Below, piece by piece: positions 3,772 to 47,885 of a stretch of 64,000 nucleotides of DNA (position 1 is the stretch's first letter; every line of letters begins with the position of its first letter). The position numbers and the translations under genes are program-made. Origin of the DNA: Methanohalophilus euhalobius (GTDB lineage Archaea > Halobacteriota > Methanosarcinia > Methanosarcinales > Methanosarcinaceae); contig NZ_OBDR01000008.1 in assembly GCF_900215215.1 (NCBI RefSeq), positions 1-64,000 of the forward strand, read 5' to 3'. A model generated the notes under the pieces. That model was not told the DNA's origin and did no database searches. It was given only the letters and a program-made list of their open reading frames with translations.

Positions 3772-4018
3772 TAATATCATCTCCTAAATAGAAGAATCTA
3801 CTTATGGACATTCATATAACCTAGATGTACACAAATTGCTCAAAAGTAAGCTTATTAATGTATGCTTGTGTTCAAAAAATATGGCACAATAAATATAAAT
3901 ATCAAATAATAAGTGATTGAGAAGGTGTATATATGAGAAATATTTTTAAACATGGGGGCATTAGGCATAAGAATCTGAGGCTCTATTGTTACGATTAACT
4001 ATTCAATTTGGGATTATT

Positions 4019-6793
4019 ATGCTTGAAGAGGAATACGATATAAATTTCTTCTACGAAAACGGTTTTATCAGAAAACAGTGCCAAAAATGTGGCAGTTATT
4101 TCTGGACCCGTGACAGAGACAGGGATACATGCGGAGATGCACCCTGTGACCCATATTCATTCATCGGCAACCCCGTCTTCAAGAAAAAGTTTAATCTTGC
4201 ACAGATGAGGGAGTTTTATCTTAGTTACTTTGAGAAAAATGGACACACACGTATTGAAAGATACCCTGTGATAGCACGCTGGAGAAATGATATCTATCTT
4301 ACTATCGCCTCCATAGCAGATTTCCAGCCCTTTGTAACTTCCGGACAGGTTGCTCCCCCTGCAAATCCACTCACCATATCACAACCATGTATTCGCCTTT
4401 CTGATCTTGACGCAGTAGGAAGAAGTGGCCGTCATCTGACTACCTTTGAGATGATGGCACACCACGCATTCAACAAAAAGGATAATGAGATCTACTGGAA
4501 AGACCGGACAGTACAGCTCTGTGACGGCCTGCTCAACGAACTTGGAGTAGACCCATTTGCTGTAACCTACAAAGAAGAACCCTGGGCAGGTGGCGGAAAC
4601 GCCGGTGCCTGTGTTGAAGTTCTTATAGGTGGCCTGGAAGTGGCAACCCTTGTGTTTATGAATCTCCAGCAATCCAAAGACGGAGATATCGTGATTAAAG
4701 GTGATACTTACAGGAAAATGGACAATTACATCGTGGACACAGGGTACGGGTTGGAAAGGCTGGTATGGGCATCCCAGGGAACCCCTACTGTATATGATGC
4801 TATATTCCCGGAAGTTGTCGGGGAACTTATGGAACTGGCAGGTGTGGAACATCGGCTGGAAGATGAAGATTATGCAAATATTTTATCCCAGAACGCCCGG
4901 CTTGCAGGCCTGATGGATGTAAGCGAAAAAGCAAACCTGCTGGAATTGCGCAAACAGGTAGCTTCAAACATAGGAATTACTGCTGATAAACTGGGCACCA
5001 TAATGGAGCCCGTGGAAACGGCATATGCCATTGCAGACCATGCCCGTTGTATAACATTTATGCTGGGTGACGGAATAATACCTTCAAATGTCAAAGCAGG
5101 ATATCTTGCAAGACTTGTGATCAGACGTACAATGAAGATGATGCAGGACCTTGGCATCACAATCCCGTTATCTGACATTATACAGATGCACATCAACCAT
5201 CTCCCCGAATACCCTGAATTCGCCGACAGATTTGATATAATAAACGACATACTGGATAACGAAGAAAAGAAATTCCAGGAAACCCTGCAGCGTGGGAAGA
5301 AACTCATACAAAAATCTGCAAAGCACTACAAGAAAAAGGGAGAAAAAATGCCTCTTGACACTGTTATAGACATGTATGACAGTCATGGCATACCGGCTGA
5401 GATATCCAAAGAAGCTGCCTCTGAAGTAGGAGTGGAAATCGAACTACCCGATAATTTTTACTCCCTTGTCGCTGAGCGGCACAGCAAATCCGTACAGGAA
5501 GAGGAAAAAGAAATCCCCTATGCAGATCATCTCAAGAAACTCCCCCCTACAAAACGGCTTTTCTACGATGAGCCAAACAGAATGGAATTCGAAGCTGTTG
5601 TTCTTGATGTTTTTGACAATAATATAGTGCTCGACAGCACACTTCTCTATCCTGAAGGAGGGGGACAGCCGCCAGACCATGGCACATTCATGGTAGATGA
5701 TGCCTTACTCAAAGTAATCGATGTCCAGATATTTAACGGGGTGGTCACCCATACCATAGAAGAAATCGAAGATGAACTCCATATTCGAAAAGGAGATATG
5801 GTTACGGGAAAAGTGGATGAAAAACGTCGTATGGCACATGCAAGAAATCATACTGCAACCCATATAATAAATGATGCAGCGCGGCAGGTGCTGGGAGACC
5901 ATATATGGCAGGCAGGTGCACAGAAATTCGTCGACCGCGCCAGGCTTGATCTTTCTCATTACAAAAGGATTGCTCCTGAGGAACTCAATGAGATTGAGAT
6001 GATTGCAAACCAGATGGTAATGGAGAACAAACGAGTAATTAGCGAGTGGATGGATCGCAGTACCGCCGAAAAAAGATACGGATTTAGCCTTTATCAGGGC
6101 GGAGTACCACCAGGGGACCGCATTCGCGTATTGCATGTAGGAAGCGATATTGAAGCCTGTGCTGGGACTCACTGCACCTTTACCGGTCAGGTTGGCCCCA
6201 TCAAAATCCTGAAGACAGAACGGATACAGGATGGAGTGGAACGTATTGAATATGCAGCAGGCGAAGCTGCTGTTGTAGCTTTCCAGGCAAGGGATAAACT
6301 TCTCAGAAGTTCTGCAGAAACATTGAGGGTATCTACCGAGCAGCTACCGTCAACCATTGAACGTTTCTTCACTGAATGGAAAGAATTTAAGAAAGAAAAT
6401 ACCCGGCTCAAGAAAGAACTGGCAGAATCCCGCGTAAATCACTTAATTGAAAATGCTGAACATCTAAAGGATATTCGCTTTATAAGTTCAAGAGTCGACG
6501 GTGCAGATGCCGATGAACTTACCCGAATGGCAGGAGAACTTGCTTCAAGTGACGATATTGTTGCATTACTCTTAAGTGATCATGAAGGTGTCAAGATCGC
6601 AGCTGCTGCGGGTGACAGTGCAGTTTCAAAAGGGGTTAACGTAGGAAACATCGTACGTAAAATAGCAAGTCTAACCGGCGGAGGCGGAGGAGGTAAACCT
6701 TCAATGGCACGTGGCGGAGGTCAGGATAGTGCAAAGATTGACGAAGGACTTGCATTGGGTCGCCGGATGGTAGAAGAGCAACTCAGGGATTAA
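4019..6793 (+). CDS. alaS: alanyl-tRNA synthetase, archaeal type
   Basis: A 924-residue enzyme charging tRNA-Ala in the cytoplasm. The N-terminus has the archaeal cysteine-rich extension (RKQCQKCGSYFWTRDR). The class II catalytic core follows. The editing domain carries its zinc/active-site motifs: HTATH at about 611-615 and CAGTH at 714-718. The glycine-rich C-Ala domain (GGGGGGKPSMARGGG) closes the protein. The frame opens at 3986, but the first 11 codons are not family-like, and the ATG at 4019 starts MLEEEYDINFF as archaeal homologues do. A TATA-like AAATATAAAT at 3891-3900 may mark the promoter. Full length, all editing residues present. Confidence 0.96.
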   Translation: MLEEEYDINFFYENGFIRKQCQKCGSYFWTRDRDRDTCGDAPCDPYSFIGNPVFKKKFNLAQMREFYLSYFEKNGHTRIERYPVIARWRNDIYLTIASIADFQPFVTSGQVAPPANPLTISQPCIRLSDLDAVGRSGRHLTTFEMMAHHAFNKKDNEIYWKDRTVQLCDGLLNELGVDPFAVTYKEEPWAGGGNAGACVEVLIGGLEVATLVFMNLQQSKDGDIVIKGDTYRKMDNYIVDTGYGLERLVWASQGTPTVYDAIFPEVVGELMELAGVEHRLEDEDYANILSQNARLAGLMDVSEKANLLELRKQVASNIGITADKLGTIMEPVETAYAIADHARCITFMLGDGIIPSNVKAGYLARLVIRRTMKMMQDLGITIPLSDIIQMHINHLPEYPEFADRFDIINDILDNEEKKFQETLQRGKKLIQKSAKHYKKKGEKMPLDTVIDMYDSHGIPAEISKEAASEVGVEIELPDNFYSLVAERHSKSVQEEEKEIPYADHLKKLPPTKRLFYDEPNRMEFEAVVLDVFDNNIVLDSTLLYPEGGGQPPDHGTFMVDDALLKVIDVQIFNGVVTHTIEEIEDELHIRKGDMVTGKVDEKRRMAHARNHTATHIINDAARQVLGDHIWQAGAQKFVDRARLDLSHYKRIAPEELNEIEMIANQMVMENKRVISEWMDRSTAEKRYGFSLYQGGVPPGDRIRVLHVGSDIEACAGTHCTFTGQVGPIKILKTERIQDGVERIEYAAGEAAVVAFQARDKLLRSSAETLRVSTEQLPSTIERFFTEWKEFKKENTRLKKELAESRVNHLIENAEHLKDIRFISSRVDGADADELTRMAGELASSDDIVALLLSDHEGVKIAAAAGDSAVSKGVNVGNIVRKIASLTGGGGGGKPSMARGGGQDSAKIDEGLALGRRMVEEQLRD

Positions 6794-6891
6794 TCATCAA
6801 ACAGGTTTGGGACTTATTATAATGTGAACAGAAGTCCCAAACATTAATATTCTAAAACGCCAAATAGAGATATCAGGAGGAGTAGAGGGAA

Positions 6892-7959
6892 ATGTCCGGC
6901 GAAGATACCGCAGAGATTATGGATACTTTTCGTGAAGGACTTGCCGACAAAACTACTGTTTTTCTGGCTCCTGCAAGTGTATCCAGTGAAAGGTTAATCT
7001 ATTTTTATATTCATTCCATACTCGAAAATGATGATCAAAAGAATATAATATGGCTCTGCCTGAAAAACTCAAGAGACAAAGTGATAGCTAATTTTAGAGA
7101 TTACGGGATGGATATCGAAGACTATCTGGCCAGAATGTGGTTTATAGATATTGAAGACCCTTCAAAAGAGAAAAAAGAAAACATCCTTTACTATTCTTCT
7201 CAGACCGATTATATGAAAATCGGGTCACATACATCTAAACTATTTTCTGAAATGCCCGGGTCAACAATGGTCATTGATGACATGAACATCCTTTCAAAGG
7301 ATAATCTCCAGGTTGTTGAAAATTTCCTGAAATACGTCATGTCAAATGTCCACCAGCATGAAGGAAGCGCTGTATCAATGCTCAATAAAGGTTCTGCTGG
7401 TGAAAAAGAAGGAACTTTGGTATCCTTTTTCGATGTTGTAATAGATGCCTCGGATACAGGAGAGATGCATGTTGAAATGGGACTGAATAGTCTTGATGTG
7501 AAATACGTAGTAGACAAGGGAAAAATCAATCTATACTATATCCAGAAAAAGGTCAAAAAAGAAAGACTCAAAATACTTATTGTAGATGATGAACCCGATA
7601 TTCCTGATCTTTTGAAATTGTCCCTTAAAGATGAACCCTACGATTTTTTAGTTGCATATAACGGGAAAGATGCCATTGAAATTGCAAGAGAAGAACTCCC
7701 CGACCTTATATTACTGGATATAATGATGCCTGATATGGACGGTTATGAGGTCGTTGAGACCCTGAAAAAGAAAAGGGACACAAGAGACATTGCAATTATC
7801 ATGATTACAGCCAAAACAAAAGTAGATGACAAACTAAAGGGAATGGAACTGGGTATCGATGATTATATTTCAAAACCCTTTGACAAAAGAGAAGTTAATG
7901 CCCGTATTAAGATGGTTATGAAACGTTTTGGCTGGAAACCCCCTGAAGAAAAGGAATGA
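6892..7959 (+). CDS. degenerate RecA/KaiC-like domain fused to receiver domain
   Basis: A 355-residue protein. Residues 1-215 look like a KaiC/RecA-fold ATPase that has lost the Walker A loop: the expected P-loop position near 25-33 reads LAPASVSSE, while a Walker-B-like strand TMVIDDMN remains at 125-132. Residues 226-345 form a complete response-regulator receiver with acidic Asp232/Asp233, phosphoacceptor Asp276 (LLDIMMPDMDG), Thr306 and Lys328. There is no DNA-binding output domain. It starts after AGGAGG and stands alone downstream of alaS. A phospho-controlled protein-protein output is plausible; the partner kinase is not in the neighbourhood. The receiver call is certain, the N-terminal fold assignment moderate. 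Confidence 0.82.
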   Translation: MSGEDTAEIMDTFREGLADKTTVFLAPASVSSERLIYFYIHSILENDDQKNIIWLCLKNSRDKVIANFRDYGMDIEDYLARMWFIDIEDPSKEKKENILYYSSQTDYMKIGSHTSKLFSEMPGSTMVIDDMNILSKDNLQVVENFLKYVMSNVHQHEGSAVSMLNKGSAGEKEGTLVSFFDVVIDASDTGEMHVEMGLNSLDVKYVVDKGKINLYYIQKKVKKERLKILIVDDEPDIPDLLKLSLKDEPYDFLVAYNGKDAIEIAREELPDLILLDIMMPDMDGYEVVETLKKKRDTRDIAIIMITAKTKVDDKLKGMELGIDDYISKPFDKREVNARIKMVMKRFGWKPPEEKE

Positions 7960-8095: not shown

Positions 8096-8352
8096 ATGAA
8101 AAAAGAAAAATCATTATATCGCAACCCATATCTTATAGCAGTACTCTATATCATTGCAATTCTTTTTCTGTATACGGTATACCGTGATCTGATAGCTATA
8201 GCTGTTGGCGGGATATTTATTACCATTTTTGGCCTGATGTACGGAGTGCAGGAACATGACAGAGATCTTATATTTTACTCCGGTCTATTTTTTTATCTGC
8301 ATCAATCGTGGCAATAATCATAGCAGGTACCTTTGTTTCAGTCATTGTATAA
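8096..8352 (+). pseudogene. small three-helix membrane protein, frameshifted at a T7 run
   Basis: The ATG at 8096 opens MKKEKSLYRNPYLIAVLY and two hydrophobic segments, then the frame runs into HQSWQ-stop at 8315-8317. Reading with one extra T in the T7 tract at 8288-8294 instead gives FFLSASIVAIIIAGTFVSVI and a natural TAA at 8350-8352. That completes a third helix and an 84-residue protein. The lesion may be a real slippage mutation, a programmed or phase-variable shift, or a consensus error. The family is an unnamed small membrane protein; function unknown. Confidence 0.7.
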
Positions 8353-8537: not shown

Positions 8538-11135
8538 ATGACGATCCCTAAAGAATATAACCCCCAAGAAGTGGAAAAAAGATGGCAGAATGCCTGGGAC
8601 ATGTCAATGTACCATTTTGATTGGGAAGATGAGAATAAACCCCAGTATATAATAGATACCCCGCCTCCCTATCCTACAGGCAATTTCCATATTGGAAATT
8701 CCCTTAACTGGTGTTACATCGATTTTGTTGCAAGATACAAACGCATGCAGGGATTCAATGTTATGTTCCCACAGGGATGGGACTGTCACGGCCTTCCCAC
8801 CGAGGTGAAGGTGGAAGAGATACATGGCATTACTAAAAACCAGGTCCCAAGAGCTGAATTCAGGAAGCTCTGTGAAGAACTTACAATCGGAAATATAGAG
8901 AAAATGCGCCAGACAATGCGCATGCTGGGTTTCTCGGTGGATTGGAGTAATGAATTCATCACGATGAAACCCGAATACTTCGTGAAAACACAGCGCTCCT
9001 TTGTCCAGATGCAAAAGCAGGGACGTATTTATCAGGCCGACCATCCGGTGAACTGGTGTCCGCGCTGCGAAACAGCTATTGCCTTTGCGGAAGTCGAATA
9101 TGAAGCAAGGGACACAAAACTGAACTATTTGAACTTTGATAAAGTCAAAATCGCCACCACAAGACCTGAATTGTTGGCTGCCTGTGTGGCTGTGGCAATC
9201 AATCCCGATGATGAAAGATATAAGGAAAAGATTGGTGAAAATGTAAAAGTACCTTTATTTGACCATGAAGTGCCTGTAATCGCTGACAAAGAGGTCGATC
9301 CGGAATTCGGTACAGGTGTGGTAATGATATGCACCTTCGGTGACAAACAGGATGTACGCTGGTGGATCGAGCACAACCTACCTCTGCGTAAGGCTATTGA
9401 CCGGAATGGCTTTATGACAGGTATTGCCGGCAAATATGAAGGAATGAAATCTTCAGAATGCAAGGATGCAATCATTAGGGATCTCAAAGAGCAGGGTTAC
9501 CTGTACGATCAGGACAGCCTTGATCAGAATGTGGGAATGTGCTGGCGTTGCAACACACCGATAGAGATCCTTTCTGAAAGGCAATGGTTTGTCAAAATTG
9601 AAAATGATAAAATCCTTGAGACTGCAAATGAGATCAACTGGATTCCCGACTACATGAAGATACGTCTGGAGAACTGGACAAACACCATGGAATGGGATTG
9701 GTGTATATCCAGACAGCGTATTTTTGCCACCCCCATACCTGTGTGGTACTGCAAAAAATGTGGAAAATCCCTGATTGCAGAAGAGGACTGGTTGCCTCTT
9801 GATCCCACACAGACAAAACCTCCAATACCCTGTGAATGTGGTTCGACTGATTTTGAAGGTGAAGAAGATGTACTGGATACCTGGATGGACTCATCCCTGA
9901 CAGCCCTGCACGTTACAGGCTGGCTTACAGATCATGAAATGAGATCACCTGCACAGCTGCGACCCCAGGGCCACGATATTATCCGCACGTGGGCATTTTA
10001 CAGCATACTGCGCTCCAAAGCCCTTCAGGATTCCAAGCCATGGGATTCTATCATGATAAATGGAATGGTACTCGGAGAAGACGGACACAAGATGAGCAAA
10101 TCCCGGGGCAACATCATTTCTCCGGAAGAGGTCGTTGACCAGTACAGTGCGGATGCGTTCCGCCAGTGGGCTGCAATCGGAGGTTCTACTGGTTCTGATG
10201 TAATGTTTAGATGGAAAGACGTGGTATCAGGGTCCAGATACTTTAACAAAATGTGGAGTATCTTCCGCTTTTCAATGTCCCATCTGGAAGAAGTACTCCC
10301 CGACATCCCTGAAGTTGCCACATCCAGCCTGGGCACAGTGGATCGTTGGCTGCTCAGCAAACTCAACAGGCTGATAATTTCAGTAACCAAAAATATGGAT
10401 AACTATCAGTTCGACGAAGCCTGCAAATCCATACGCGGATTTGCCTGGGAAACCCTTGCAGACAACTATATCGAACTTGTTAAAGCCAGACTATATAGAG
10501 AGGATGAAACTTCAAAGAGAGCAGCTCGTTACACCCTCCACACAACTCTGGAAACTCTGACCCGCATGCTTGCACCCTTTGCGCCTTTCTTTGCAGAGGA
10601 AGTTTATTCCCATATTTCTACAGGCAGCGTCCACCAAACAAAATGGCCCTCTGCACACAGGGAAATGATCGATGAAACTTCTGAGAAGCAGGGTGAAATA
10701 ATAAAAGACCTCGCAAGCAGTATCCGCAGGTATAAATCCGATTCAGGGATGGCTCTGAATGCTCCTCTCAAGAAGATCGAGATATATTCTGTAATGGATG
10801 ATGTTACCGATCTTGAGGGAGCTACAAATTCCGCGGTGGAAGTTATAGAAGGAAAACCCGAATTTGAACATGTGCCTGTGGATGTGAAACCCAACATGGG
10901 AATTATCGGACCAAAATTCCGCAAACAGGCTGGCAGTATCATCACTACCCTGAAAAGCATGGATGCATCCCGGGTTGCACAGATGAAGGAATCCGGATCC
11001 ATTGATATTGAAGTTGATGGAGAAAAAATAAGTCTGGAACCTGAAAGTGTGGAAATAATAAAAGAAGTGACGTCTGCAGGCAGGACAGTGGATGTTATTG
11101 AAGTCAGCGATGTAATGGCCGTAATATTGCGCTGA
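8538..11135 (+). CDS. valS: valyl-tRNA synthetase, archaeal type
   Basis: An 865-residue class I synthetase that charges tRNA-Val. The HIGH motif is HIGN at 51-54 within [13 protein letters not shown], and KMSKS lies near 517-521 (HKMSKSRGN). The editing-domain signature is [10 protein letters not shown], which marks ValRS rather than IleRS (whose motif is TTTPWTLP). Zinc-knuckle cysteine pairs appear around [13 protein letters not shown] and PCECGS. The frame is open from 8463, but family similarity starts at the ATG at 8538 ([16 protein letters not shown]). Full length. Confidence 0.95.
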
Positions 11136-17573: not shown

Positions 17574-17699
17574 AATAAAATCAAGAGCCTGAATGGAATT
17601 TATGTAATGAAATAATTGTAAATCAAATTCCTAAAATGGCATTGATATAATATTATAAGCCAGATATAAATAATTTTGCAGGATAATCGCTGTGAAAAC

Positions 17700-20600
17700 A
17701 TGCAAAACAATTCAAACTCCTGGGACTTCTGGATCGACAGAGGTGGCACATTCACCGATATCGTGGCCCTGAAACCGGACGGGAAACTCCTGACACACAA
17801 ACTCCTGTCCGACAATCCCGAACAATACGAAGATGCTGCTATAGAAGGAATTCGACAAATCCTGAATCTCGGAAAAGATGAAACCCTTCCTGCAGAAAAA
17901 ATTGCATCTATCCGTATGGGAACCACTGTAGGAACAAATGCACTGCTTGAGCGCAGGGGAGAGCCTACAGTACTTGTAATAACGGAAAGGTTCAGGGATA
18001 TCCTGAAAATAGGATACCAGAACCGCCCCTCTATATTTGCACTTGATATAAAAAAACCCGAAGTCCTCTATGAGGAAGTTATTGAAGTCAGGCAAAGATA
18101 CAGCTCTGACGGAACAATAGTAACTCCTCTGAACTGTGAGGACATCAAAGAAAAACTTATGGAATATTACCATAAAGGTTACCGCTCTGTCGCAGTTGCC
18201 CTTATGCATTCATTTCGCTATCCTGCTCACGAAGAGCAAATCGAAAAGATTGCACATAATGCAGGATATACCAATATATCCCTATCCCATCGCACAAGCC
18301 CGTTAAGCAAGCTGGTTGCCCGGGCAGAAACAACAGTTGTGGATGCATACCTGTCCCCGGTGCTGGAACATTATGTAAACCTGGTACGCAACAAACTCAA
18401 TGATCAGAAAAACTCGACTGATCTTTTTTTCATGCAATCCAGCGGCGGACTTGTCGACGGAAACAGTTTCAGGGGCAAAGACAGTATTCTTTCTGGACCT
18501 GCCGGCGGTATCGTAGGATCAGCAGAAGTCTGCAGGATGGCAGGGTTTGATCGGGTAATCAGTTTTGATATGGGAGGTACATCCACCGATGTAGCCCATT
18601 ACAGGGGAGAAATGGAACGAACCCTTGAATCAACTATCTCAGGAACACATCTGCACACTCCAATGCTGAACATACATACTGTTGCTGCAGGCGGTGGATC
18701 AATCCTGCATTTTGAAGATGGCAGGTTCCAGGCAGGACCTGATTCTGCGGGAGCCGACCCCGGACCCGCCTGTTACAGGAAAGGAGGGCCACTTACCGTT
18801 ACTGACTGTAACGTAATGCTGGGCAAGATCAGCCCACAGAATTTTCCCCGCATTTTCGGTGAAAATGCGGATTTATCCCTTGACAGGGAAATTGTTGTGG
18901 AAAAATTTTGTGAACTTGCAGAAGAAATAAAGTTGCAAACCGGCAAAAGCATGAATCCGGAAGAAGTTGCCGAAGGTTTCCTGAAGGTGGCAGTGGAAAA
19001 TATGGCTAATGCCATCAAACATATTTCGGTGAAAAGAGGGTATAATCTTGAAGATTACATTCTCTGTTGTTTCGGAGGTGCAGGAGCCCAACATGCGGGT
19101 CTTGTAGCTGATTCTCTGGGAATTGAAAAAATACTGATTCATCCCTTTGCAGGAGTACTGTCAGCCTACGGAATGGGACTTGCAGACAGACGGGTAATCG
19201 AGGAGAAGGCTCTGGAAAAGTATCTTGAAGAAGGGATTGAAAAGGAACTGACAGGTGTTACAAAGAACCTTTCTGAAAAAGGAATGGAACGCATGCTTGC
19301 CACAGGTGACAGGAATATTGACATCGAAACCGTGGAAAGGGTCCGCCTGAAATATGAAGGTACTGAAACAACTTTTGATGTGCCATATGGCCCTATAGAC
19401 GAAATGACAAAAATGTTTTACAACCTGCACATAGAACGTTTTGGTTTTGTAAGCGAAAATAGAAAACTGGTAGTAGATTCTGTTTATGTGGAAATTATTG
19501 GGAAGAACCAGATACCTGCAGAAACCACCCATTTATTAACAGATAAAAACCCGAAACCTGCATCTTCAAAGGAAGTTTACATGGAAGGGAGATGGCACCG
19601 GATACCTTTGTTCACAAGGGATGTTCTCAAACCCGGCAATCGGATCACCGGTCCTGCCCTGATCATGGAAGATACAACTACCATTGTACTGGAACGTAAA
19701 TGGCAGGCTTGCGTAACAGAACACAATCATTTGCTACTGGAAAAAAAGATGACAAAGTCCAGACCGGATATTGGTACTGAAGTCAATCCTGTCATGCTTG
19801 AGATATTCAATAACCGTTTCATGTCAGTAGCCGAGCAGATGGGATACAGGTTGCGCAATGCAGCCCATTCGGTAAATATTAAGGAGAGACTGGATTTTTC
19901 CTGTGCAATCTTTGATGGCAGCGGTAACCTTGTTGCAAATGCGCCCCACATCCCGGTACACCTGGGCTCCATGGAAGACGCAGTAAAAGAGGTAATCCGC
20001 AATCATGAGAATGATTTCAGCGAAGGTGATACCTACATTCTCAATTCCCCCTATCATGGAGGGACCCATCTGCCCGATATAACCGCAGTTTCCCCGCTTA
20101 TTAGCAACGGAAAACCACAATTTTATGTAGCATCCAGAGGCCACCATGCGGATATCGGCGGGATTACTCCAGGTTCCATGCCACCATTAAGCAAGAGGAT
20201 CGAGGAAGAAGGAGTTCTTATTGAAGAATTCAAACTTACAGAGCAAGGAAAATTTCGGGAAGAAGAATTTGTGGAACTTTTCAATCAGGCAACATATCCC
20301 CCTCGAAACCCCGACCAGAACATCGCAGATCTCAAAGCACAGATTGCTGCCAACCAGAAAGGAATAGAAGAACTCCGCAAACTTGTTGATACCTATTCCC
20401 TGAAAACCATTACTGCATACATGCAACATGTACAGGATAATGCCGAAATGGCAGTGGAAAAAGTGATTGATATTTTAGAAGATGGAGATTTCGAGTACAC
20501 ACTGGATGATGACAGTAAAATTGCAGTAAGGTTAAGAATTGACAGGGATAACACAAAAGCAACCATCGATTTTACAAACACTTCACCTCAAACAAAAAGC

Positions 20601-21308
20601 AATTTCAATGCACCGTCTGCAGTCTGCAAAGCTGCGGTACTTTATGTATTCCGGACACTTGTGCAGGATGATATTCCGCTTAATTCGGGCTGTCTCAGGC
20701 CTATTACGATAATCATTCCCGATAATTCGATGCTTAATCCTTCATATCCTGCAGCTGTTGTGGCCGGCAATGTCGAAACTTCCCAATACATCGTGGATTG
20801 CCTTTACGGAGCCCTCGGTATACTTGCACCGTCCCAGGGAACAATGAATAATTTCACGTTCGGCAATGACAGATTCCAGTATTATGAGACCATCTGCGGA
20901 GGGGCAGGAGCAGGCAATGGTTTTGATGGAGAAGATGCGGTTCAGACACACATGACTAATTCTCTGATTACAGACCCCGAAATAATGGAATTACGTTTTC
21001 CTGTCAGAATAGAAGAATTCAGTATTCGAAGGGGTAGTGGAGGAGCGGGAAAATTTCAGGGAGGCAATGGCGTGATCAGAAGGATACGTTTTCTCAAAAA
21101 AATGAAGGCAGCAATTCTTTCAAGCCACAGGAAATACCCGCCAAAGGGAATGGCAGGCGGAGAAACTGCAAGCACCGGCGAAAACATCTTAAAAAAGAAA
21201 AGTGGGCAAACTATTGAACTTTCAGCAGCTGATGAAATGGAAGTGGAAGAAGGAGATGTATTCATAATTAAAACTCCCGGAGGAGGAGGCTATGGAAACA
21301 GGGAATGA
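17700..21308 (+). CDS. 5-oxoprolinase / N-methylhydantoinase A-B fusion
   Basis: A 1202-residue ATP-dependent amidohydrolase combining both hydantoinase subunits, as eukaryotic 5-oxoprolinase does. The HyuA half (1-680) has WIDRGGTFTDIVA near 10, the phosphate loops SGPAGGIVGSA and FDMGGTSTDVAH, and CCFGGAGAQHAG. The HyuB half begins near 696 (NPVMLEIFNNRF), contains SGNLVANAPHIPVHLGSM and ends with KTPGGGGYG. Substrates of the family are 5-oxoproline, hydantoins or related cyclic amides; the sequence does not choose. The ATG at 17700 is preferred to an upstream TTG at 17676. It overlaps the next gene by 17 bases, implying an operon. Confidence 0.92.
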   Translation: MQNNSNSWDFWIDRGGTFTDIVALKPDGKLLTHKLLSDNPEQYEDAAIEGIRQILNLGKDETLPAEKIASIRMGTTVGTNALLERRGEPTVLVITERFRDILKIGYQNRPSIFALDIKKPEVLYEEVIEVRQRYSSDGTIVTPLNCEDIKEKLMEYYHKGYRSVAVALMHSFRYPAHEEQIEKIAHNAGYTNISLSHRTSPLSKLVARAETTVVDAYLSPVLEHYVNLVRNKLNDQKNSTDLFFMQSSGGLVDGNSFRGKDSILSGPAGGIVGSAEVCRMAGFDRVISFDMGGTSTDVAHYRGEMERTLESTISGTHLHTPMLNIHTVAAGGGSILHFEDGRFQAGPDSAGADPGPACYRKGGPLTVTDCNVMLGKISPQNFPRIFGENADLSLDREIVVEKFCELAEEIKLQTGKSMNPEEVAEGFLKVAVENMANAIKHISVKRGYNLEDYILCCFGGAGAQHAGLVADSLGIEKILIHPFAGVLSAYGMGLADRRVIEEKALEKYLEEGIEKELTGVTKNLSEKGMERMLATGDRNIDIETVERVRLKYEGTETTFDVPYGPIDEMTKMFYNLHIERFGFVSENRKLVVDSVYVEIIGKNQIPAETTHLLTDKNPKPASSKEVYMEGRWHRIPLFTRDVLKPGNRITGPALIMEDTTTIVLERKWQACVTEHNHLLLEKKMTKSRPDIGTEVNPVMLEIFNNRFMSVAEQMGYRLRNAAHSVNIKERLDFSCAIFDGSGNLVANAPHIPVHLGSMEDAVKEVIRNHENDFSEGDTYILNSPYHGGTHLPDITAVSPLISNGKPQFYVASRGHHADIGGITPGSMPPLSKRIEEEGVLIEEFKLTEQGKFREEEFVELFNQATYPPRNPDQNIADLKAQIAANQKGIEELRKLVDTYSLKTITAYMQHVQDNAEMAVEKVIDILEDGDFEYTLDDDSKIAVRLRIDRDNTKATIDFTNTSPQTKSNFNAPSAVCKAAVLYVFRTLVQDDIPLNSGCLRPITIIIPDNSMLNPSYPAAVVAGNVETSQYIVDCLYGALGILAPSQGTMNNFTFGNDRFQYYETICGGAGAGNGFDGEDAVQTHMTNSLITDPEIMELRFPVRIEEFSIRRGSGGAGKFQGGNGVIRRIRFLKKMKAAILSSHRKYPPKGMAGGETASTGENILKKKSGQTIELSAADEMEVEEGDVFIIKTPGGGGYGNRE

Positions 21309-46013: not shown

Positions 46014-47885
46014 TCATTTTGGTACAGGTATCGCTAACGTAAAAGTAGTACCCATTCCAGGCTCACTTTCCACCCGTATACTTCCACCATGCATTTTCAC
46101 ATATCTGTTTACAATGGCAAGCCCCAGACCGGTGCCACCATATTTACGGGTGGAAGACGAATCGACCTGTTTAAAGGGATCAAATATGCTTTGGAATTTT
46201 TCATCAGGAATACCTATACCATTATCTGAGATAGATATTTCAATATTATCACCGACAAGCTGGGATGTAATTGTAACTTTACCTTTTTGAGGTGTGAATT
46301 TAATTGCATTGCTGAGTATATTATACATGATTTGTTTGAATTTTACCTTATCAGCAAATATTTCTATATCTTCAGATTCGATGTTGGATGTAAGTTCAAT
46401 ATCTTTTTTATTAGCCATGGGTTGCATCAAGGTTACTACTTCATCCACCGTTTCTGTAAGGTTCATGTTTTCAGGTTCATACCCCATTTTACCCGCTTCT
46501 ATTTTGGAAAGATCAAGAATATCATTGATCAATTTCAACAGATGTTTTCCGCTTTTGAGAACATTGGATATGTATCTGGTCTGGTTTTCATTCAAATCAC
46601 CATGTTTTTTATCTTTCAGGATATTAGAAAAACCAATGATTGAATTAAGAGGTGTCCTTAATTCATGACTCATATTGGCAAGGAATTCTGATTTGGCACG
46701 ATTTGCTTCCTCAGCTGCTACCTTACTTTCCACGAGATGTTTTTCTATTTCCTGGCGAATATCTTCCAGTTCCAGTTTGTAGAGGGCAAAAGAAATGTCA
46801 CCTTTTACTTCTTCAAACAAACCGATTATTTCGCCGTCCTGTGCAAATTCCCGGGATATGGTGGCTGCAATTACACCATATACATTATCCTTGTATTCAA
46901 GTTTAGAAAGCAGGTGTACTGATTTTGTATATTCCTTTGCCGGAGTATGATCGGTATATTGCTCAAATAAGTCATCCACAATAAGCAATTCGTCTTTTTC
47001 TAAAACAGTCCTGATATAATCAGGGGTTTCACCTTTTTCCATTTTTGAGGAAAGGAGTGAATATTTACTAACTCCGCTACTTTCCTCAAAAAGGATTGGC
47101 TTTTGATTATGATCCATCAAACATATACATGCACTGTAAAAACTATGGGATTCAGCGAGGATGTCACAGATACCCTGTACAAGTTTTAATTTATCGTTTT
47201 CTGTTACGATAAGCTGGTTTACATTGCGTATGGATTTTAACACCGAAGTCAGGTACTCAATCCTTTTTTCATTCGTTTTACGTTGAGTGATGTCATTGAT
47301 AATACATATCGTTCTTTCATAGTTTCCATTGGTTTTATTCATACCTGAGGAATTTATGATGACATCAATAAGAGTGCCATCCTTTCTAACCATCTTGTAT
47401 TCTTTACCGTAAGAATAGCCGGTTTCAAGGATTTCCTGAAGGGATTGGGAAGCTTTGCCCAGATAATCCGGATGAATTATCTTTGCCATTGGATAGCCTA
47501 TGATTTCCTTTTTTTTATAACCCAGGAAATTCTGGACCTGGTTGTTGCAGTCAACAATTATGCCATCAGAATCTATAGAGGTAATCAGGTTTGCAGCGGT
47601 TTCAAAGATGGACCTGTATTCCTCTTTGGCTTTTAAGGCCTCTTCGTAGAAGTTGTTGATTTCATTAATGTGGGGTATTACGTAAAATAGAAACAAAAGG
47701 GCGGTTACCAGAACAAAAAGCCATCCTTTATAGGTTTGCAGCAGGCCATATAATCTTATATCAGAAACAAACCATCCCAATGCCATATCTGAAAACAGGA
47801 TCCAAAGACCTGCAAAGACAACATATAACAATGTGGTTGTCAGAACAGCATTTACATCCTTTTTAATCTGTGATGATTCTTTCAT
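46014..47885 (-). CDS. membrane sensor histidine kinase (PAS-GAF-HisKA-HATPase)
   Basis: A 623-residue kinase. Two N-terminal membrane helices (about 14-36 and 53-70) flank a very short external loop. A PAS domain follows (residues about 85-205, with [20 protein letters not shown] and the PAC end [11 protein letters not shown]), then a GAF-like domain (about 225-370). The HisKA phosphoacceptor is His407 ([10 protein letters not shown]), and the ATPase has N box [11 protein letters not shown]1 DNGIGIP and G2 GGTGLGLAI. No response regulator is adjacent; the receiver protein at 6.9 kb is one possible partner in this window. The stimulus is unknown. Confidence 0.93.

Follow-up and report, generated by a model that had tools for sequence, protein, structure and literature searches.

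The window, i.e. the whole stretch of 64,000 nt of Methanohalophilus euhalobius DNA that we analyzed, carries downstream of alaS a gene coding for a protein of two parts, an N-terminal KaiC-fold domain without a P-loop (N-domain) and a receiver domain (Table 1). A preliminary description of this DNA had read the open reading frame as a KaiC-fold domain lacking Walker A joined to a complete receiver; our analysis confirmed this observation. The gene is called here iKaiC-REC after the published architecture (see below). The opposite strand of the gene, read in the matching frame, is interrupted by stops. Its neighbors in M. euhalobius are alaS, a 73-aa ORF and ileS, with neither a partner gene nor a kinase gene beside it. 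The upstream gene is taken to be alaS on the basis of its sequence.

The 73-aa ORF between iKaiC-REC and ileS (window 8096-8317) has hydrophobic stretches; it was seen in four loci of the genus and had no Pfam match. At another place in the window (17676-21308) hydantoinase/oxoprolinase A and B are fused in one 1210-aa ORF (PF05378, PF01968, PF02538).

Table 1. Features of the iKaiC-REC locus (positions in the window)
Feature	Positions	Strand	Basis or remark
alaS-like gene, 935 aa, constant upstream neighbor	3986..6793	+	homolog upstream in 31/31
11-bp perfect inverted repeat GTTTGGGACTT/AAGTCCCAAAC after alaS	6805..6842	+	z -2.61; overlaps upstream element
Gene-specific upstream element tCCCAAA[CG]ATTAATA..AAAAcAaAACaAAT, 34 bases	6835..6868	+	conserved in 27/35 named loci
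Shine-Dalgarno-like AGGAGG	6875..6880	+	read from sequence
iKaiC-REC gene	6892..7959	+	ATG start, 355 aa, stop included
N-terminal KaiC-fold domain without P-loop, residues 1-222	6892..7557	+	predicted structure
Degenerate P-loop position, residues 26-34 (APASVSSER)	6967..6993	+	between strand 21-26 and helix 33-46
Residues 58-59 (K-N), supposed position of KaiC Glu-Glu pair	7063..7068	+	putative placement
Walker-B-like strand, residues 125-130 (TMVIDD)	7264..7281	+	strand 125-130 in model
Receiver domain, residues 227-345, OmpR/PhoB-like	7570..7926	+	PF00072
Phospho-acceptor D276	7717..7719	+	38/38 sequences

Fold of the N-terminal domain

At the sequence level the N-domain matched KaiC families below their cut-offs: TIGR03880 (KaiC_arch_3) with E 5.8e-4 and 19.5 bits (cut-off 249), and PF06745 with E 1.3e-4 and 21.8 bits (gathering cut-off 26.6); the PF06745 match in the window protein begins at profile position 48, i.e. 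past the P-loop. Among 21 family members compared at E up to 10, PF06745 matched four, DUF835 (PF05763) matched eight (best E 5.8e-4), and MEDS (PF14417) matched none. A phmmer search of solved structures with the N-domain returned nothing significant (best 2w0m, E 0.31), and a 21-row N-domain profile found no KaiC entry among them up to E 1. Alignment of the N-domain profile with the ArlH profile by hhalign was weak (probability 0.5, E 0.13), and in none of the loci inspected did the gene stand among arl genes; identity with ArlH/FlaH was not supported.

Since the sequence search of solved structures was not significant, comparison of structures was needed; the N-domain was modeled alone because the receiver dominates fold searches made with the full model. 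The structure was predicted from an alignment of 21 of the 25 family sequences (the near-identical L013, L015, L019 and L022 were omitted, and the five receiver-less matches L036-L040 were kept out; a second alignment took all 25 sequences). The predicted model (pLDDT 89.6, pTM 0.88) had FlaH (4yds) as the top Foldseek match (E 4e-10), with KaiC and PH0284 next. VIA-align gave Z 19.6 to PH0284 (2dr3_F; 212 residues, 3.5 A), Z 18.4 to SSO2452 and Z of ~18 to KaiC CII, values far exceeding the level which the tool calls common. The KaiC/RecA-like fold proposed in the preliminary description is thus borne out by structure prediction, the predicted fold being related to, rather than distinct from, RecA/KaiC.

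Two further parts of the proposal, loss of the P-loop and retention of a Walker B-like strand, held in 38 aligned sequences, those of 37 loci from named genomes and of the window (one, L134, is cut at the N-terminus). G-x4-G-K-[ST] was absent from residues 1-222 in all 38; an isolated GKS was seen at another position in one (L124). At the old P-loop P27 and R34 are invariant (37 of the 37 rows having a residue there). Residue 129 is D in 36 sequences and E in two. Position 58 is K, N or S, and 59 is mixed; among 37 rows E occurs at 59 in one and at both positions in none, with these residues being placed by our assumption at the catalytic Glu-Glu pair of KaiC. As far as a predicted model goes, the N-domain has the KaiC fold in a degenerate form.

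Since the 38 sequences have neither G-x4-G-K-[ST] nor a Glu pair at 58-59, we find it most improbable that the N-domain uses an atypical loop for ATP binding and is an ordinary KaiC ATPase under receiver control, even if the Walker B aspartate is kept in 36 of 38, the overall predicted fold is intact, and the text of Galperin et al. has the architecture under ‘enzymatic output domains’ (their table says iKaiC; PMC5847659).

A possible, though rather unlikely, alternative is that the inactive domain serves as a ligand sensor, which would bind a small molecule or nucleotide in the old cleft and gate the receiver, similarly to the MEDS-type proposal. Invariance of P27 and R34 is consistent with such a role, as is the distribution of positions at least 90% conserved: 15 of 54 at those ends of strands that look toward the former nucleotide site versus 18 of 113 in the rest of the core; however, this enrichment is not significant (Fisher p = 0.096) and the face was drawn by hand. 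In the list of Galperin et al., MEDS is a sensor domain and DUF835 an iKaiC output domain (PMC5847659), but MEDS had no match in the 21 members and no ligand candidate came up.

Receiver domain

The receiver matched PF00072 with E 2.7e-30 and 105.2 bits (cut-off 30.2) over residues 228-339; the solved receivers closest in sequence belong to the OmpR/PhoB group (MicA/VicR, PhoP, PhoB). All 38 aligned sequences have the acid pair D232/D233, the acceptor D276, S/T306, K328 and the switch tyrosine Y325; the receiver is complete, as had been stated for the window protein, and is so in the whole set. K314, D323, D324, E334 and R338 are invariant as well (38 of 38); E319 is found in 37 of 38, and position 340 is K or R in all 38. 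These positions (K314, E319, D323, D324, E334, R338, K340) presumably correspond to the alpha4-beta5-alpha5 dimer face of PhoB.

The absence of a DNA-binding output, another point of the preliminary description, was also seen: the protein ends with the receiver, no other Pfam domain scored over cut-off, and the winged-helix DNA-binding domain of the OmpR/PhoB family is missing C-terminally by Pfam.

Distribution, selection and prior description

In a set of 60 genomes (M. euhalobius and relatives) 30 had N-domain matches; 25 of these 30 belong to Methanosarcinaceae, a family represented by 37 genomes searched. All 25 orthologs of the family share the two-domain layout, one ORF coding for both the N-domain and the receiver; recurrence of this kind argues that the fusion is not due to chance. 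In a phylum sample of 392 genomes the N-domain was matched in 50 (41 in the family, nine outside it). In these nine the best matches fell in frames of 198-313 aa, which could not hold the iKaiC-REC layout, and two weaker matches in non-family genomes were in frames of 392-393 aa. Among the genomes listed, no match was seen in 19 genomes of g8 and g11, two genera with large genomes and therefore probably Methanosarcina.

The scan of named genomes yielded 37 iKaiC-REC loci, all in Methanosarcinaceae records titled with non-Methanosarcina genera or ‘Methanosarcinaceae archaeon’; they include two HMMV records, one labeled ANME3. N-domain matches of 95-96% identity come from the named records of Methanohalophilus profundi and Methanohalophilus sp. 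RSK. In the genomes searched, iKaiC-REC appears restricted to Methanosarcinaceae outside Methanosarcina. Both halves of the protein are under purifying selection: in 15 pairs of six Methanohalophilus genomes (the two most divergent of eight were omitted) the N-domain had dN/dS values of 0.089-0.243 and the receiver values of 0.017-0.115.

Galperin et al. in 2018 listed ‘iKaiC-REC’, with iKaiC defined as an inactivated KaiC-like ATPase domain, for nine proteins of Methanosarcinaceae (example ABE53050/Q12U26) from six genera, Methanohalophilus included, and cited Makarova et al. 2017 (mBio) for the fusion (PMC5847659). The window protein is almost certainly the Methanohalophilus ortholog of these response regulators. 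The architecture is therefore already known, and the earlier remark that such a design is not commonly described in methanogens has to be dropped, six methanogen genera being listed in that paper. What is added to the architecture published in 2018 is the gene context making the function testable: an architecture so far known from a list can be put to concrete tests through its conserved neighbors, i.e. the GvpD-like KaiC gene, the lone receiver, the kinase and the archaellum operon. The main text of PMC5847659 has no mention of archaellum/flagellum, FlaH or GvpD, and the neighborhood of iKaiC-REC, its upstream element and its retention without an archaellum were not found there. A literature search over titles and abstract openings found no experimental study of any iKaiC-REC protein.

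Gene neighborhood

Neighbors were counted within the available flanks of the 37 named loci. The constant one is alaS: all 31 loci whose upstream flank reaches 2.5 kb or more have it upstream of iKaiC-REC; ileS is downstream in eight of 37. This proximity to tRNA-synthetase genes is the one ground in the genomes for supposing that iKaiC-REC acts on the transcription/translation machinery and not on a KaiC ATPase, in the manner of the BcsE N-domain, which binds S10/NusE and NusB (PMC7439463); we consider action of this kind very unlikely.

A GvpD-like KaiC gene was found upstream in 16 of 37 loci: it adjoins iKaiC-REC in 14, and in two it is three genes away, separated by kinase and PhnD genes. 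It was not found in the other 21, some of which are too short to show one. Its protein matched PF07088 (1.7e-20) and PF06745 (3.5e-14), and a P-loop was read in four copies. On the basis of these 16 loci, action of iKaiC-REC on another KaiC-like ATPase is plausible. A lone receiver gene is directly downstream in 21 of 37 loci, and a histidine kinase gene is beside iKaiC-REC in six of 37, none titled Methanohalophilus. In records titled Methanolobus, alaS is usually followed by the GvpD-like KaiC gene, iKaiC-REC, the lone receiver, a methyltransferase gene on the opposite strand and then arlCDE-F-G-H-I-J. Loci of the Methanomethylovorans type (L125, L126, L129) have a divergent kinase between alaS and iKaiC-REC.

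Pairings of KaiC-family genes, with each other or with receiver genes, were seen elsewhere as well. A Walker-A-less, receiver-less KaiC relative in L095 (8180-8911) overlaps an active KaiC ATPase gene (8908-9639) by 4 bp, and another such relative in L098 (7786-8514) overlaps an active KaiC ATPase gene (7065-7802) by up to 17 bp, starts being as called in both cases. Lone receivers of the kind that follows iKaiC-REC are located within ~6 kb of a 484-512-aa frame similar to the GvpD-like query in nine places (G037, G040, G042 twice, G046, G050 twice, G054, G058); the seven genomes concerned represent two further families of the order. The M. euhalobius genome itself has a REC-MetOD1 response regulator gene 58 bp from an active KaiC ATPase gene on the same strand (L090 6067-7687). 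All these pairings are associations, not proof.

Receiver-less relatives at three loci from three genomes and two families (L095 11331-12104, L096 7774-8712, L097 3660-4403) adjoin genes recognized by eye as ParA/MinD-like ATPase and HTH-like; the L095 relative matched PF06745 with 28.3 bits, from profile position 47 on.

A PAS histidine kinase (HisKA, HATPase) is encoded in the window at 46014-47885, ~38 kb from iKaiC-REC, and the ORF list shows no receiver gene near it; the preliminary description had pointed to it as a possible phosphate donor, and we rejected it as the cognate kinase for lack of linkage. The neighbor kinase of L051, used as a query, had partial matches alone in M. euhalobius (23-42% identity; the best, 35%, over the kinase core).

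Upstream region with a probable control element

The conserved element between alaS and iKaiC-REC has a core, CCCAAACATTAATAT at 6836-6850, that is unique in the genome up to one mismatch. Occurrences were counted in 35 of the 37 named loci, as L110 and L134 begin too near the contig end. A loose pattern of the element was present upstream of the gene in 27 of 35 loci and had no further occurrence in their 782,400 strand-bases; mononucleotide shuffles gave it in 0.045 loci on average; a strict pattern was present in 22 of 35. Loci missed by the loose pattern are L104-L108, L111, L131 and L136; in L104-L108 we recognized by eye a related variant, AAAAGGTTAATATT. The element stays with iKaiC-REC under varying upstream genes (alaS, GvpD-like, PhnD, kinase); therefore, iKaiC-REC probably has its own promoter, and co-transcription with the upstream KaiC gene is then not required. 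Judging by sequence, 6835-6868 is the probable promoter/operator of iKaiC-REC.

The inverted repeat is the only copy in the genome and is perfect or slightly worn in six of eight genomes of the genus; by its appearance it could be terminator-like or an operator. An Rfam search of 6700-7000 gave no match up to E 1.

Possible relation to the archaellum

Archaellum genes are located downstream of iKaiC-REC in 21 of the 37 named loci, and ArlH (FlaH), a KaiC-family ATPase, was the best Foldseek match of the N-domain. KaiC-like CirA and ArlH have been tied to motility in Haloferax (PMC13286277). One could suppose that iKaiC-REC acts on ArlH or ArlCDE, controlling assembly or switching of the archaellum. 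Among the 37 family genomes, 19 have both iKaiC-REC and the ArlI type searched for (>40% identity), six have iKaiC-REC only, two ArlI only, and 10 neither (Fisher p = 0.001); this p-value overstates the association because the genomes are related, and the two-by-two table is a simplification, since PF04659 is matched in G001 and G004, two genomes in which this ArlI type was not found. In G026 (Methanosalsum-like; L073 12980-14314) the locus has neither iKaiC-REC nor the lone receiver nor arlCDE but still has alaS, the methyltransferase gene and arlF-arlJ, so that the losses flank the retained methyltransferase gene on both sides; at other sites of the G026 genome, too, no iKaiC-REC and no such lone receiver was found. 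This joint absence hints at a link between iKaiC-REC and ArlCDE.

On the other hand, an opposite-strand methyltransferase gene stands between iKaiC-REC and the archaellum genes in 20 of the 21 loci, and thus a shared operon is not indicated; with alaS as the constant neighbor, the archaellum may be a bystander. In Methanohalophilus and Methanococcoides records no archaellum follows iKaiC-REC, ileS being next in all but L102; the archaellum operon is at another site in G003, G005, G006, G009, G019 and G033. Neither ArlI (>40% identity) nor PF04659 was found in M. euhalobius (G000), G007 and G002; still, between G000 and G007 the N-domain had a dN/dS of 0.12 and the receiver one of 0.04. Retention in these two genomes speaks for a task of iKaiC-REC beyond the archaellum, and the genomes that yielded no archaellum gene make it unlikely that the protein serves motility alone. 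Because the gene is under selection in G000 and G007 with no PF04659 or ArlI detected, we hold it unlikely that iKaiC-REC is a dedicated archaellum regulator; the archaellum is one possible client.

In three Methanosalsum-like genomes ArlI is about twice the usual length (L073 7939-11319; also L058 and L074, with frames of 1078 and 1164 aa). The L073 protein has a 575-aa in-frame insertion after residue 396 of the reference, in which PF14890 (intein splicing) matched with 5.5e-6 and 26.7 bits, below the cut-off of 35.8; L058 had no such match at 1e-3. By its sequence, the insertion looks like an intein in the archaellum motor ATPase.

Proposed mechanism

The explanation that we favor tentatively, while giving it somewhat less than an even chance, is phospho-controlled pairing of inactive KaiC domains that dock on an active KaiC-family ATPase. 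An unlinked histidine kinase would phosphorylate D276; the phosphorylated receiver would dimerize via its alpha4-beta5-alpha5 face, like OmpR/PhoB receivers, and the receiver dimer would bring two KaiC-fold domains together. These domains, without P-loop use of ATP, would dock on the active ATPase and cap or gate its ring; the docking partner could be the GvpD-like protein in Methanolobus, and ArlH or another KaiC protein elsewhere. iKaiC-REC would then be a phosphorylation-controlled pseudo-subunit of a KaiC ATPase, with a KaiC-fold protein-binding module as its output. The kinase, dimerization, partner and direction of the effect are parts of this mechanism that we infer.

The docking mechanism is consistent with the fold, the P-loop loss, the intact receiver and the conserved dimer-face positions, as well as with the adjoining GvpD-like KaiC gene, the KaiC gene overlaps (L095, L098), the lone receiver, the absence of both iKaiC-REC and the lone receiver from G026, the REC-MetOD1 gene near an active KaiC gene, and the precedent of BcsE. 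Against it are the lack of an adjoining partner or kinase gene in M. euhalobius, the 21 of 37 loci in which a GvpD-like neighbor was not found, the own promoter suggested by the upstream element, and the weakness of the ArlH profile match (E 0.13).

In an extended version, which we regard as doubtful, iKaiC-REC would be a phospho-controlled pseudo-subunit assembling with rings of active KaiC-family ATPases and switching them, as part of a module with its own conserved promoter element; the module would consist of the GvpD-like KaiC, iKaiC-REC, the lone receiver and sometimes the divergent kinase. If this were true, bacterial-type two-component signaling would plug straight into the archaeal KaiC network, steering the archaellum in some lineages. 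The iKaiC-REC fusion is among the few places of physical contact between bacterial-type receivers and the archaeal KaiC family; Galperin et al. argued that archaeal signaling is a bacterial/archaeal hybrid of that sort (PMC5847659).

Comparison with known systems

The iKaiC-REC of Galperin et al. shares architecture and family with the window protein, and Methanohalophilus is among the genera named for it (PMC5847659). With KaiC/RAD55-like ATPases of solved structure (PH0284 2dr3, SSO2452 2w0m, KaiC CII, FlaH/ArlH 4yds, 4wia) the N-domain shares the fold over 187-212 residues, with Z 17-20 and identity of 9-15% among the best 50 matches listed; unlike these ATPases, it has no Walker A and no Glu pair at 58-59. 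The GvpD-like proteins encoded upstream in 16 of the 37 loci are of the KaiC family, but are ~446 aa long, have a P-loop and carry no receiver.

DUF835 is, like the N-domain, an inactivated KaiC-like domain, which was matched by eight of 21 members at E up to 10; in the DUF835 architectures listed the receiver comes first (REC-DUF835), unlike in iKaiC-REC (PMC5847659). MEDS, marked iKaiC together with DUF835 in the same list, occurs there as MEDS-REC and REC-MEDS in two proteins of Nitrososphaera and Nitrocosmicus (PMC5847659); inactivated and KaiC-like as it is, MEDS differs from the 21 iKaiC-REC members in giving no match with them.

The layout of Escherichia coli BcsE is similar to that of iKaiC-REC: a RecA/KaiC-like N-domain with a divergent Walker A is followed by a receiver fold (PMC7439463). 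The receiver of BcsE is degenerate, whereas that of iKaiC-REC is complete, and BcsE, which belongs to a bacterial cellulose system, adds a degenerate GGDEF domain (PMC7439463). The N-domain of BcsE drives homo-oligomerization (PMC7439463), and BcsE is a precedent for the layout of iKaiC-REC.
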